Shown: in pieces, positions 60,455-63,215 of the stretch
Layout: every line of letters starts with the position of its first letter
Position numbering within the stretch: the stretch's first letter is position 1
Assembly: GCF_037044555.1 (NCBI RefSeq)
Contig: NZ_CP146275.1
Location: 2,832,501-2,896,500 of the forward strand
Source: Pelagibacterium nitratireducens
GTDB lineage: Bacteria; Pseudomonadota; Alphaproteobacteria; Rhizobiales; Devosiaceae
Length of the DNA stretch: 64,000 nt
Direction: 5' to 3'
Position numbers and translations under genes: made by a program
The notes under the pieces: generated by a model
What the model was told of the DNA's origin: nothing
Databases searched by the model: none
The model's input: the letters and a program-made list of their open reading frames with translations, nothing else

Positions 60455-60847
60455 CTATCGGCCTTGCGACCCTGCCGATCCGGCATCGTAGCTGGCCCGT
60501 GCCGCGTCGATGGTAGAAACGTTTTCCGCCGCCCAATTGCTCAGTACGGTGACCGGTGCCTGCAGCGAGCGTCCCAGATCGGTCAGTTCATATTCGACAC
60601 GAGGGGGAAGCGTGGCAATGACGGTGCGGCGCACGAGGCCGTCGCGCTCGAGGCCGCGCAGGGTGCGGGTCAGCATGCGCTGGGAAATATCGTCAATGGA
60701 GCGCAGCAATTGCCCGAACCGCAGAGATCCCTCCCCCAACCGCGTCACGATCAACAGACTCCATTTGTCGCCGATACGCCCGAGAACCTGACTGACCTTG
60801 AGGCACGTTTCAGTGGGATGGGTTTCTTGCATCGTCGTTACAGTCAT
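60455..60847 (-). CDS. HxlR-family transcriptional regulator
   Basis: A 130-residue winged-helix regulator. CLKVSQVLGRIGDKWSLLIVTRLGEGSLRFGQLLRSIDDISQRMLTRTLRGLERDGLV covers the HTH and wing, with the characteristic Cys at about residue 14 and the GDKWSLLI motif. Some HxlR proteins (HypR, QorR) sense electrophiles or oxidants through that N-terminal Cys. ATG 60847 has AAGG upstream. It diverges from the double flavoprotein gene and is its likely regulator. Confidence 0.92.
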   Translation of the reverse strand: MTVTTMQETHPTETCLKVSQVLGRIGDKWSLLIVTRLGEGSLRFGQLLRSIDDISQRMLTRTLRGLERDGLVRRTVIATLPPRVEYELTDLGRSLQAPVTVLSNWAAENVSTIDAARASYDAGSAGSQGR

Positions 60848-60851
60848 GTGC

Positions 60852-60923
60852 CTTACCTTACAGAAAAGTGCCGTCTTGCGGGCTGTTCGACTTACTCTCA
60901 TATACGACAGGAACAAAAAGTAA
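60852..60923. promoter_or_regulatory. repeats in the hxlR/flavoprotein divergent promoter
   Basis: CTTAC occurs at 60852-60856, 60857-60861 and 60891-60895, with an inverted GTAA at 60920-60923 (as AAAGTAAC). ACTTACT/AGTAAGT-type sites are typical of HxlR regulators. This is the only recognisable structure in the 91-bp gap. Confidence 0.4.
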
Positions 60924-60938
60924 CAAGAGGAACCGGCA

Positions 60939-63215
60939 ATGCCTGACTATGGCCACGAGCTAATGTTCGGGACATTTACGACACCATCCGCCAAGGATCC
61001 CCAGCACGCCGTTGCGATTGCCCAAGTGGCCGAAGCGGCGGGGCTGGATGCCGTGACGATCCAGGACCACCCCTATAATTCGGACTTTCTGGACACCTAC
61101 ACGCTGCTGACCTGGATCGCAGCCAAGACCAGCCGCATCAGGGTAGCCGCCAATGTCACCAATCTGCCGCTTCGCCCGCCAGTGGTGCTGGCCAAGGCGG
61201 CCGCAAGCATCGACCTGCTTTCGGGCGGGCGGTTTGAGATGGGGCTGGGGGCCGGCGGGTTTGGCGATGCGATCAAGGCGGCAGGCGGGCGGGATCTGAC
61301 CGCCGGCCAGCGCGTCGATGCGCTCGAAGAGGCAATCGGGATCATGCGGTCGATCTGGGATACCAGCCGGGCCGGGCTCAAGCATGAGGGCGAGCACTAT
61401 CAGATCAATGGTCTGCGGCGCGGACCACGTCCCGCGCACGAGATCGGGATCTGGCTGGGCGCCTACAAGCCCCGCATGCTTCGGATCACCGGAGCCAAAG
61501 CCGATGGATGGCTGCCAAGCTGGGATTATCTCAAGTCGCCCACGATGGTTGAATCGAACGCGATGATCGACGAGGCGGCGCGTGCAGCCGGACGGCAGCC
61601 TTCCGATATCAAACGGCTGCTCAATTTCGGACGTCCGGCCATTCTGTCGGCCAATGGCGGGTTCTTGCAGGGACCGGTACGCCAGTGGGTCGAGCAATTG
61701 TCCGAGTTGATCCTCGAACACGGGTTCAGCGGGTTCTTTTTCGGGGGCGACGACCCGGACCTGCTGCGGGCGATTGGCGAAGAGATCGCGCCGGAGGTCC
61801 GAAGCGTTGTGAGCAGGGCGCGGGCCGGTTCAGGTGTTGTGGCGCCGCGTCCGAGTGCGGTGCTATCCAAGCGGATGGAGGGGATCGATTATGACGGCTT
61901 GCCCCCTGCCCTTGCGGACCGCGCCATCGAACCGGGCGATTTTCGCTATGAGGGCGTGCGGCATTCCTACATCTGGTCAGGGCGGCCTGGGCTGGTGATC
62001 AAGCCGGAAACGGCCGAAGAGGTTTCGGCGGCGGTGCTTTATGCGCGCAAGCAAGACGTGCCGCTTTCGGTGCGCAGCGGCGGACATGGGATCAGCGGGC
62101 GTTCGACCAACAGAGGCGGGATCATCATCGATCTTGGGTCGATGAACGCCATTGAGGTGCTCGATGCGCAAAGCGGGCTGGTGCGGCTGGGCGCCGGTGC
62201 GCGCTGGAGTGAGGTTGCGGCAAAGCTCGGCGAGCATGGGCTGGCAATGAGTTCGGGCGATTATGGCGGCGTCGGGGTTGGCGGGCTCGCAACGGCGGGC
62301 GGGCTGGGTTATCTGGCGCGCAAGTTCGGGCTGACCATCGATCATGTGGCGGCCGCGGAGATTGTTTTGGCCGATGGGCGGATCGTGCGGGCGGACAAGG
62401 ACAATGAGCCCGATTTATTGTGGGCCATTCGCGGTGCTGGCGGCAATTTCGGCATCGTTACGTCATTCGAACTTGAAGCCTATCCCCTGGGCAATGTGAT
62501 CCAGGCCGTTCAGGTATTCGATGGCAGCGATATGGCGGGCGTTCTCGAGCGCTGGGGCGCGCTGGTCGAGGCATCGCCGCGCGAGTTGACCAGCTTTCTC
62601 ATGGCGGTGCCCGGACGGGCCGACCAGGGGCCGCTGGCCCAGGCGATCAGCGTTTATGCAGGCGAGGATGCCGATGCGGCGGCCGAGGCGATCAATGCTT
62701 TGGGCGAAGCCGGGCCGATTCTCGATCAGCGGGCATATCTCACGCCCTATGCCGGCGTTGTGGCCCATCCGGGCGGTGAGCATCGCGGGGGGAGCGCTGT
62801 GATCAGGTCGGGGCTGGTTGACCACATCACGCCCGAAGTCGCGGCGCGGGCGAACGGGCTGCTGGCCGCGGGGGCGGCCAATCTGTTGCAGATCAGATCG
62901 GTGGGCGGAGCCGTCAACGATGTTGCGGCTGACGCCATGGCCTATCCGCACCGGACGCAGAATTTTTCGCTGACTGCCGCCGGCAGTCGCGGGCGGGCGG
63001 AACTGCTCGATGGGCAATGGGGCGACCTTCGGCCACTGCTCAAGGGCATGTATCTCAATTTCGAGACCGACACACATCCAGACAGGCTGGTCGAGGCGTT
63101 TCCCGAGCCCACATTGTCACGATTGCGAGCGCTGAAACGGCGCTACGACCCCGACAATGTGTTCAATCTGAACTTTGCAATTGAACCCCAGGAGAGCATT
63201 CGCGCCGCCTCATGA
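60939..63215 (+). CDS. fusion of luciferase-like monooxygenase and VAO/BBE-type FAD oxidase
   Basis: A 758-residue protein. Residues 1 to about 290 are an LLM-class flavin monooxygenase (LMFGTFTTPSAKDPQHAVAIA, SGGRFEMGLGAGGF, GIWLGAYKPRML). Residues about 335-510 are a PCMH FAD domain with RSGGHGISG (His383, expected covalent flavin link) and GDYGGVGVGGL, where Tyr442 replaces the second (Cys) link of bicovalent BBE enzymes. The C-terminus YDPDNVFNLNFAI is a BBE tail. No signal peptide is seen. GAGG precedes the ATG. The substrate is unknown. Confidence 0.88.
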   Translation: MPDYGHELMFGTFTTPSAKDPQHAVAIAQVAEAAGLDAVTIQDHPYNSDFLDTYTLLTWIAAKTSRIRVAANVTNLPLRPPVVLAKAAASIDLLSGGRFEMGLGAGGFGDAIKAAGGRDLTAGQRVDALEEAIGIMRSIWDTSRAGLKHEGEHYQINGLRRGPRPAHEIGIWLGAYKPRMLRITGAKADGWLPSWDYLKSPTMVESNAMIDEAARAAGRQPSDIKRLLNFGRPAILSANGGFLQGPVRQWVEQLSELILEHGFSGFFFGGDDPDLLRAIGEEIAPEVRSVVSRARAGSGVVAPRPSAVLSKRMEGIDYDGLPPALADRAIEPGDFRYEGVRHSYIWSGRPGLVIKPETAEEVSAAVLYARKQDVPLSVRSGGHGISGRSTNRGGIIIDLGSMNAIEVLDAQSGLVRLGAGARWSEVAAKLGEHGLAMSSGDYGGVGVGGLATAGGLGYLARKFGLTIDHVAAAEIVLADGRIVRADKDNEPDLLWAIRGAGGNFGIVTSFELEAYPLGNVIQAVQVFDGSDMAGVLERWGALVEASPRELTSFLMAVPGRADQGPLAQAISVYAGEDADAAAEAINALGEAGPILDQRAYLTPYAGVVAHPGGEHRGGSAVIRSGLVDHITPEVAARANGLLAAGAANLLQIRSVGGAVNDVAADAMAYPHRTQNFSLTAAGSRGRAELLDGQWGDLRPLLKGMYLNFETDTHPDRLVEAFPEPTLSRLRALKRRYDPDNVFNLNFAIEPQESIRAAS

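Follow-up and report, generated by a model that had tools for sequence, protein, structure and literature searches.

What chemistry could be carried out by a single protein that joins two flavoenzymes of different kinds, and which cofactor would each of them use? The question is raised by a gene in a 64,000-nucleotide stretch of the Pelagibacterium nitratireducens genome (GCF_037044555.1, contig NZ_CP146275.1, positions 2,832,501 to 2,896,500; hereafter the window), in which a luciferase-like monooxygenase (LLM) half is followed by a FAD oxidase half of the vanillyl alcohol oxidase/berberine bridge enzyme (VAO/BBE) type (Table 1). The initial annotation of this locus saw two redox enzymes in one chain and took the LLM half to activate O2 through reduced flavin. 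The first part stands, whilst the second is probably wrong, given the co-occurrence of the fusion with genes for the deazaflavin cofactor F420. We propose, with about even confidence, that the LLM half is an F420 hydride transferase which would act with an O2-reducing FAD oxidase half on the same or consecutive compounds, forming an inducible two-centre oxidoreductase. The architecture, the conserved residues, the association with F420 genes and the decay of fused LLM halves beside intact LLM genes were computed; we infer the cofactors bound, a shared substrate, the hydride direction, the inducer and the substrate.

The fusion is real and established

Both halves were recognised by Pfam well above the gathering score: Bac_luciferase (PF00296) at residues 17-228 (165.6 bits, cut-off 27.9), FAD_binding_4 at residues 350-485 (111.3 bits, cut-off 26.4) and BBE at residues 705-748 (29.0 bits, cut-off 20.6). 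These scores bear out the initial description of an LLM domain and a VAO/BBE-type FAD domain in one 758-residue chain. Genome contigs were searched with the fusion as query, and the best 80 of 584 confirmed stretches were kept as the set of genome loci. Nearly the whole query length was matched in each of the 80 (best-segment identity 44-99%) and both halves lay in a single unbroken frame in 79, ruling out a sequencing error as the origin of the fusion. The exception, L100, has its first ~142 residues shifted to another frame. Within the genus, the stop or frameshift near residue 300 that had been feared is absent from four other members (G001, G008, G010 and G011), in which the gene is free of stops. 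In G009 the gene contains an in-frame TGA at residue 191, which explains the 556-residue Pelagibacterium flavum database entry P0010. The fusion is real and established.

The suspicion that no protein with the LLM, FAD_binding_4 and BBE architecture has been characterised was upheld, as none turned up in literature searches. A description of an LLM-FAD_binding_4 fusion was likewise not found in full-text searches, the coverage of which largely excludes subscription journals; a paper on the Brucella ovis flavoproteome (PMC9045290) contains both family names. The combination of LLM and FAD oxidase appears undescribed, each half by itself being of a known kind. Database entries for such fusions carry general names, e.g. 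'LLM class flavin-dependent oxidoreductase'.

F420 genes accompany the fusion

LLM enzymes that use FMN and those that use F420 have a common fold. Similarity alone is insufficient to tell FMN from F420 use and we therefore examined co-occurrence with F420 genes. CofH is needed to make the F420 core and CofE, the last enzyme of F420 synthesis, adds the glutamate tail. We profiled 49 carriers: the genomes behind 43 of the 80 loci, together with six from the window's genus (G009 with its broken copy among them). CofE was present in all 49. CofH reached 245 bits or more in 21 carriers, 14 of these scoring above the curated cut-off. TIGR03868, the model of a putative F420-0 importer, was matched above its curated cut-off in 27 of the 28 carriers without CofH (the window's genome included); in the remaining one, a TIGR03868 fragment lies ~1.3 kb from CofE. 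An F420 supply, counted as CofH at 245 bits or more or an importer above cut-off, was thus found in 48 of 49 carriers, with a fragment in the 49th.

Controls on the importer were also run. None of the five genus members that lack the fusion as well as CofE scored above the cut-off, nor did any of the four CofH-bearing carriers put to this check (out of 21); G007, a non-carrier with CofE, did. In the window's genus, CofE was present in 6/6 carriers vs 1/6 non-carriers (P = 0.008). A sample of 246 genomes from one actinobacterial class contained 43 with a family hit (E ≤ 1e-100), and every one of these was among the 204 with CofE (P = 1.3e-4, relatedness ignored); 33 of the hits include some or all of the FAD half and 10 have hemerythrin instead. 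In the window's order (397 genomes), all three carriers were among the 63 genomes with CofE. This profile suggests that genomes retain the LLM half only when they have access to F420. In the genus g16, which belongs to the same family as the window's organism, CofE matches with Pelagibacterium-like scores were seen in 11/11 sampled genomes, and no fusion match at E ≤ 1e-100 was found in these 11.

The window's own genome matched neither CofD nor CofH, and CofD was absent from all 13 genomes searched in the genus. It does contain a cluster (L102, C1:3119000-3130000) of CofE, importer-like genes and two LLM genes. CofE (TIGR01916, 212 bits, cut-off 181), the importer binding protein (TIGR03868, 414 bits, cut-off 392) and the permease (TIGR03869, 483 bits, cut-off 437) all passed; the importer ATPase (TIGR03873, 317.7 bits) fell under its cut-off of 372.4. 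The first LLM gene passes the F420 model TIGR03842 and the second passes the F420 model TIGR03557, its top match being the FMN-named TIGR03885, below cut-off. The cluster probably serves F420-0 salvage in an alphaproteobacterium. An argument from missing CofH to missing F420, and hence to FMN, was dropped in view of this cluster and its extension to other carriers. CofD (PF01933) was dropped as an F420 marker for actinobacteria since PF01933 also includes the YvcK paralogue; the E. coli control matched too. The words 'berberine', 'fused' and 'uptake' do not occur in PMC8498797, and its sole 'transporter' is a possible exporter.

Cofactor of the LLM half

In an alignment of 81 rows, Asp43 was conserved in 79 and His44 in 77. 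The two residues occupy what we take to be the place of the catalytic Asp-His pair of F420 LLM enzymes, and their IQDHPY motif is retained in 11/11 hemerythrin-fused LLMs and in the separate LLMs shown. The nearest solved chain to the LLM half was F420-dependent Mer (E 1e-17), followed by FMN-dependent RutA (E 2e-14). The top NCBIfam LLM models were TIGR03619 (127.7 bits, cut-off 166.9) and TIGR03560 (119.7 bits, cut-off 231.4). With the luciferase-like hydride transferases (LLHT) Mer, FGD, Adf and fHMAD the fusion shares the LLM domain, the Asp-His motif and presence in F420-using genomes. It differs from them in scoring below the F420 LLM cut-offs shown and in being joined to a FAD oxidase; to our knowledge, none of the four is fused in this way. 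Since carriers co-occur with CofE and with CofH or the F420-0 importer, the LLM half is probably an F420 hydride transferase and not an FMNH2/O2 monooxygenase. Use of F420 would mean hydride transfer with no O2 activation.

Several observations weigh against F420 use and against the inducible two-centre oxidoreductase as a whole. Among the 25 examined of 40 matching NCBIfam families, no F420 LLM model was matched at its curated cut-off, and the match to the FMN enzyme RutA is itself significant. The acid position of FGD, which we take to be Glu109, corresponds to Gly or Ala107 in the fusion. CofE is common in the sampled actinobacterial class anyway (204/246), and the five genus members without CofE also hold importer-like proteins at 187-262 bits, below cut-off. 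Related genomes make the rows non-independent, and small genomes may lack both genes for other reasons. A Flavodoxin_2/FMN_red gene, which would fit FMN, adjoins the one locus in which the halves are unfused (see below). The type of regulator beside the fusion is not conserved, so that inducibility is no more than suggested.

The LLM half could instead be a group C FMNH2 monooxygenase, fed by a separate flavin reductase, with the FAD half oxidising the same substrate before or after oxygenation. The common fold, the match to RutA-type enzymes and the flavin-reductase-like gene beside the two-gene form would all be in line with this. We nevertheless consider it decidedly unlikely: the carriers tested co-occur with F420 synthesis or putative salvage, the LLM half is matched best by F420 families, both among solved structures and in NCBIfam, and flavin-reductase families do not figure in the top 25 by frequency of the 134 families downstream (69 loci).

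The FAD half is predicted to be a monocovalent oxidase

EncM is the closest solved protein to the FAD half (PDB; 184.9 bits, E 2e-53), aligning over nearly its entire chain with fusion residues 326-751. The EncM, mitomycin radical oxidase and 6-hydroxy-D-nicotine oxidase branch likewise combines FAD_binding_4 with BBE and has a single predicted His link. Position 442, which we take from the BBE motif to be the site of the second link in bicovalent relatives, is Tyr in 63, His in 10, Phe in 8 and Ser in 5 of 86 fusion rows. None of the 86 FAD halves carries the Cys of the bicovalent type there. His383 is invariant in these rows, and in the 81-row alignment His stood at 383 in 81/81 and Tyr at 442 in 58/81. 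Because His383 is invariant (86/86) and Cys never occurs at 442 (0/86), a single covalent FAD link via His383 is predicted, in line with the initial annotation, which had read the retained His383 and Tyr442 in place of the second-link Cys in the same way. The FAD link of EncM is His78 (PMC7662398).

The fusion is unlike EncM in having Val at the place of Thr139 and Arg653 in place of Leu, and in being preceded by an LLM half. An EncM-like flavin-N5-oxide oxygenase would be an alternative reading of the FAD half, for which the top PDB match and the common linking His would speak. The Thr of EncM 139 is Val445 in all 86 rows, and oxidase activity was seen in the EncM T139V variant according to the review PMC7662398. 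The FAD half also scored only 166 bits against the BagK/FevA1 equivalog model, far under its cut-off of 800. An N5-oxide oxygenase is thus highly improbable, and an oxidase is to be expected from Val at the Thr139 place and the activity of T139V. Tyr705 is the probable base of this half by analogy with BBE-like oxidases, a tyrosine base having been proposed for cannabinoid synthases (PMC11375781).

Separate, split and alternative-partner LLM forms

A separate LLM gene adjoins the fusion in 13 loci, eight of the 80 and five fetched later. To score decay, we took the positions (68 LLM and 73 FAD) whose conservation reached 95% or more across 72 single-copy fusions; the lowest scores of these fusions themselves were 65 and 68, respectively. 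The frameshifted L100 was outside this set, and the separate LLM of L081, frameshifted in its record, was unscored; tandem fusions were scored from the whole reading frame. In 12/12 scored pairs the separate LLM kept 65-68 of the 68 invariants vs 21-64 in the fused LLM half (paired Wilcoxon P = 5e-4), and the FAD half in tandem loci kept 70-73 of 73. This is a pattern and not a rate, the positions having been picked on single-copy fusions and the loci having surfaced through their separate LLM. The His44 stretch was lost from the fused LLM of L097, L111, L121, L124 and L125; His44 was replaced by Asp in L084 and by Glu in L089, and kept in L076, L079, L081, L082, L092 and L126. The pairing of two LLM polypeptides at a locus, with the active-site His missing from one of them in 7 of the 13 tandem loci, recalls the division of labour of LuxA/LuxB. 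Here, unlike in LuxA/LuxB, the decayed copy is joined to a FAD oxidase. Decayed fused LLMs can be seen at L097:6897-9026, L084:5989-8295, L121 and L124, each beside an intact separate LLM.

An unfused form was found on a plasmid of Streptomyces sp. NBC_00316, where an HxlR gene is divergent to an LLM gene that overlaps a FAD oxidase gene by 4 bp. The two proteins are 38% (LLM) and 43% (FAD oxidase) identical to those of the window. Since an intact LLM adjoins decayed fusions and a two-gene form exists, the FAD oxidase apparently requires an intact LLM nearby, whether in cis or trans.

Two findings go against strict pairing. No LLM is annotated within 4 kb of a free relative of the FAD half that is 52% identical and keeps 72/73 invariants. 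Further, a hemerythrin HHE domain is fused to the LLM in 10/10 of the class-sample hits without a FAD half and in one plasmid protein. These actinomycete LLM-hemerythrin fusions (L110:4001-5545, L112-L120 and L123) differ from the window's in having C-terminal HHE instead of a FAD oxidase. Their LLM part is 54-58% identical to the window's in 10 of 11 and 47% in the 11th, and keeps 54-68 of the 68 LLM invariants. The plasmid LLM-hemerythrin proteins are annotated merely as LLM oxidoreductase.

The halves might be catalytically independent, fused for co-expression only and with no coupled reaction. The same kind of LLM half with a hemerythrin partner or as a separate gene, together with the free FAD-half relative, would fit this. 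The intact LLM next door to every scored decayed fused LLM (12/12) counts against independence, with the proviso that these loci were found via that gene and that co-expression predicts it too. We regard independence as somewhat unlikely and favour the coupled F420 hydride transferase and FAD oxidase.

In a larger LLM tree (FastTree), the tandem fused halves that could be included grouped together with a support of 0.15, and the hemerythrin-fused LLMs did not form one clade. As support is low and the roots are uncertain, we make no claim on the order of fusion and fission.

Proposed mechanism

In the two-centre oxidoreductase, F420, made or imported, would exchange a hydride with a small organic substrate at the active site of the LLM half, where Asp43-His44 would lie; the substrate may be either reduced or oxidised. 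In the window's organism the cofactor would come from imported F420-0 completed by CofE. FAD on His383 would take a hydride from that compound or the one following it, with Tyr705 as probable base, and pass the electrons to O2, releasing H2O2. Both halves would act on one compound or on consecutive intermediates. As a regulator of a small-molecule-sensing kind commonly adjoins the fusion (HxlR in the window, MarR or others elsewhere), the enzyme would carry out a self-contained, inducible step that modifies or detoxifies a small compound, perhaps an anionic or phenolic one.

A bolder possibility, which we hold to be unlikely, is a self-contained F420-linked oxidase in which the FAD or the hemerythrin diiron centre would pass electrons of F420H2 (or of the LLM product) to O2 and so make the dehydrogenation irreversible. 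F420H2 reacts poorly with O2, and the LLM half alone would for this reason be reversible. Re-oxidation of F420H2 by the C-terminal domain would explain why both alternative partners are O2-reactive. If this bolder possibility is true, F420-dependent LLMs whose O2-reactive partner domain can be exchanged would represent a design principle new to F420 enzymes.

If the two-centre oxidoreductase proposed above is right, automatic annotation hides a widespread single-chain coupling of deazaflavin (F420) with flavin (FAD) chemistry. Another class would then be added to the F420 enzymes of aerobic bacteria, among them proteobacteria that seemingly import F420-0 and do not make it. The fused, split, LLM-decayed and hemerythrin-partnered forms would offer a natural series for probing the coupling of F420 to O2.

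Table 1. Features of the fusion locus, with positions counted from the first letter of the window.
Feature	Position	Strand	Basis
HxlR-family regulator, 130 residues from likely ATG at 60847	60455..60847	-	PF01638, 99.5 bits (cut-off 20.8)
Divergent gap between hxlR and fusion gene, 91 bp	60848..60938	.	Positions of open reading frames
Fusion gene, LLM half and BBE-type FAD half, 758 residues	60939..63215	+	List of open reading frames; Pfam
Luciferase-like (LLM/LLHT) half, residues 1-291, probably F420-dependent	60939..61811	+	PF00296; similarity to Mer; F420 co-occurrence
Conserved motif IQDHPY with Asp43-His44, residues 41-46	61059..61076	+	81-row alignment
Variable linker, residues 292-329	61812..61925	+	Gaps and few conserved columns between halves
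FAD_binding_4 and BBE half, EncM-like oxidase, residues 330-758	61926..63212	+	Pfam; EncM as best PDB match
His383, predicted FAD-linking histidine	62085..62087	+	Invariant in 86/86 fusions; GGH motif aligns with EncM
Tyr442, presumed place of second (Cys) FAD link in bicovalent relatives	62262..62264	+	Placement from BBE motif; Tyr 63, His 10, Phe 8, Ser 5 of 86, never Cys
Val445, opposite EncM Thr139	62271..62273	+	EncM alignment; Val in 86/86
Arg653, candidate anion-binding residue, Leu in EncM	62895..62897	+	Invariant in 86/86; role inferred
Tyr705, candidate catalytic base of FAD half	63051..63053	+	Invariant in 86/86; analogy with BBE-like oxidases

Regulator and neighbouring genes

Neighbouring genes were called with a home-made codon-usage caller, which placed 74 of the 80 loci in the upstream count and 69 in the downstream count; HxlR reading frames were found with a hidden Markov model built in this analysis. 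HxlR is not a constant neighbour of the fusion. It lies adjacent upstream in 20 of 74 loci, vs 29 with a MarR-type gene (MarR_2) and few of any other kind. Rescanning of 21 HxlR proteins gave no match to MarR models, so the two counts do not overlap. In a first pass, 56/77 upstream genes were on the opposite strand. Different regulator families occupying the same place suggest that the gene is switched on by a small molecule. The upstream neighbours of L057 and L092 were considered as F420 reductases and left unused: they pass the broad Pfam model F420_oxidored and fail the NCBIfam F420 reductase cut-off.

The N-terminal Cys that had been noted in the window's HxlR protein is indeed present, as Cys15. 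Judging from aligned sequences it is common in the HxlR family, a Cys standing at this place in 24/28 non-truncated rows (counted by eye, own-genus and some non-adjacent rows included). No palindromic operator is claimed in the 91-bp gap, for which five Pelagibacterium sequences were aligned. Close to its start, hxlR carries a frameshift in both G009 and G011, and L023 shows the same shortened reading frame. From this common frameshift and the stop in the G009 fusion gene, the module seems to be decaying in the G009/G011 lineage (loci L103 and L003).

Gene order and gene sizes on both flanks agree in the five genus genomes fetched, the window's own included. The gene downstream of the fusion is a GH1 glycosidase (scored in the near-identical record L022), and the genes upstream of the locus resemble a sugar ABC transporter, as judged by eye. 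Across the 69 loci, the downstream context held nothing recurrent except five LLM genes and gave no hint of a substrate.

Distribution and origin

A protein search reported 4182 matching proteins, and details were taken from the best 120. Both PF00296 and PF01565 were present in 119 of these, P0010 lacking PF00296. Ten of the 120 are 75-95% identical to the window's protein, the named ones coming from Pelagibacterium or Rhizobiales; the rest are 49-65% identical and carry mostly actinomycete names. The fusion was present in 6 of 12 searched genomes of the window's genus (G009 included) and in 3 of 397 genomes of an order-wide sample, all three belonging to the window's genus. A Devosia protein (P0017, 62% identical) indicates that further carriers exist in the order. 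The fusion occurs widely among actinobacteria and seldom in the window's order. A tree of LLM halves (FastTree) placed the window's gene within a group of 11 sequences, eight of them actinobacterial, with a support of 0.996. On the strength of this placement, the copy in the window's genus probably came from actinobacteria.

In a plasmid collection, 2 of 642 matching records covered at least 80% of the query, one of them being an 11.85-Mb replicon. P0027, a 1065-residue relative filed under the yeast Metschnikowia pulcherrima, is 49% identical to the window's protein; this identity and its mainly bacterial kin suggest that the yeast assignment reflects contamination.

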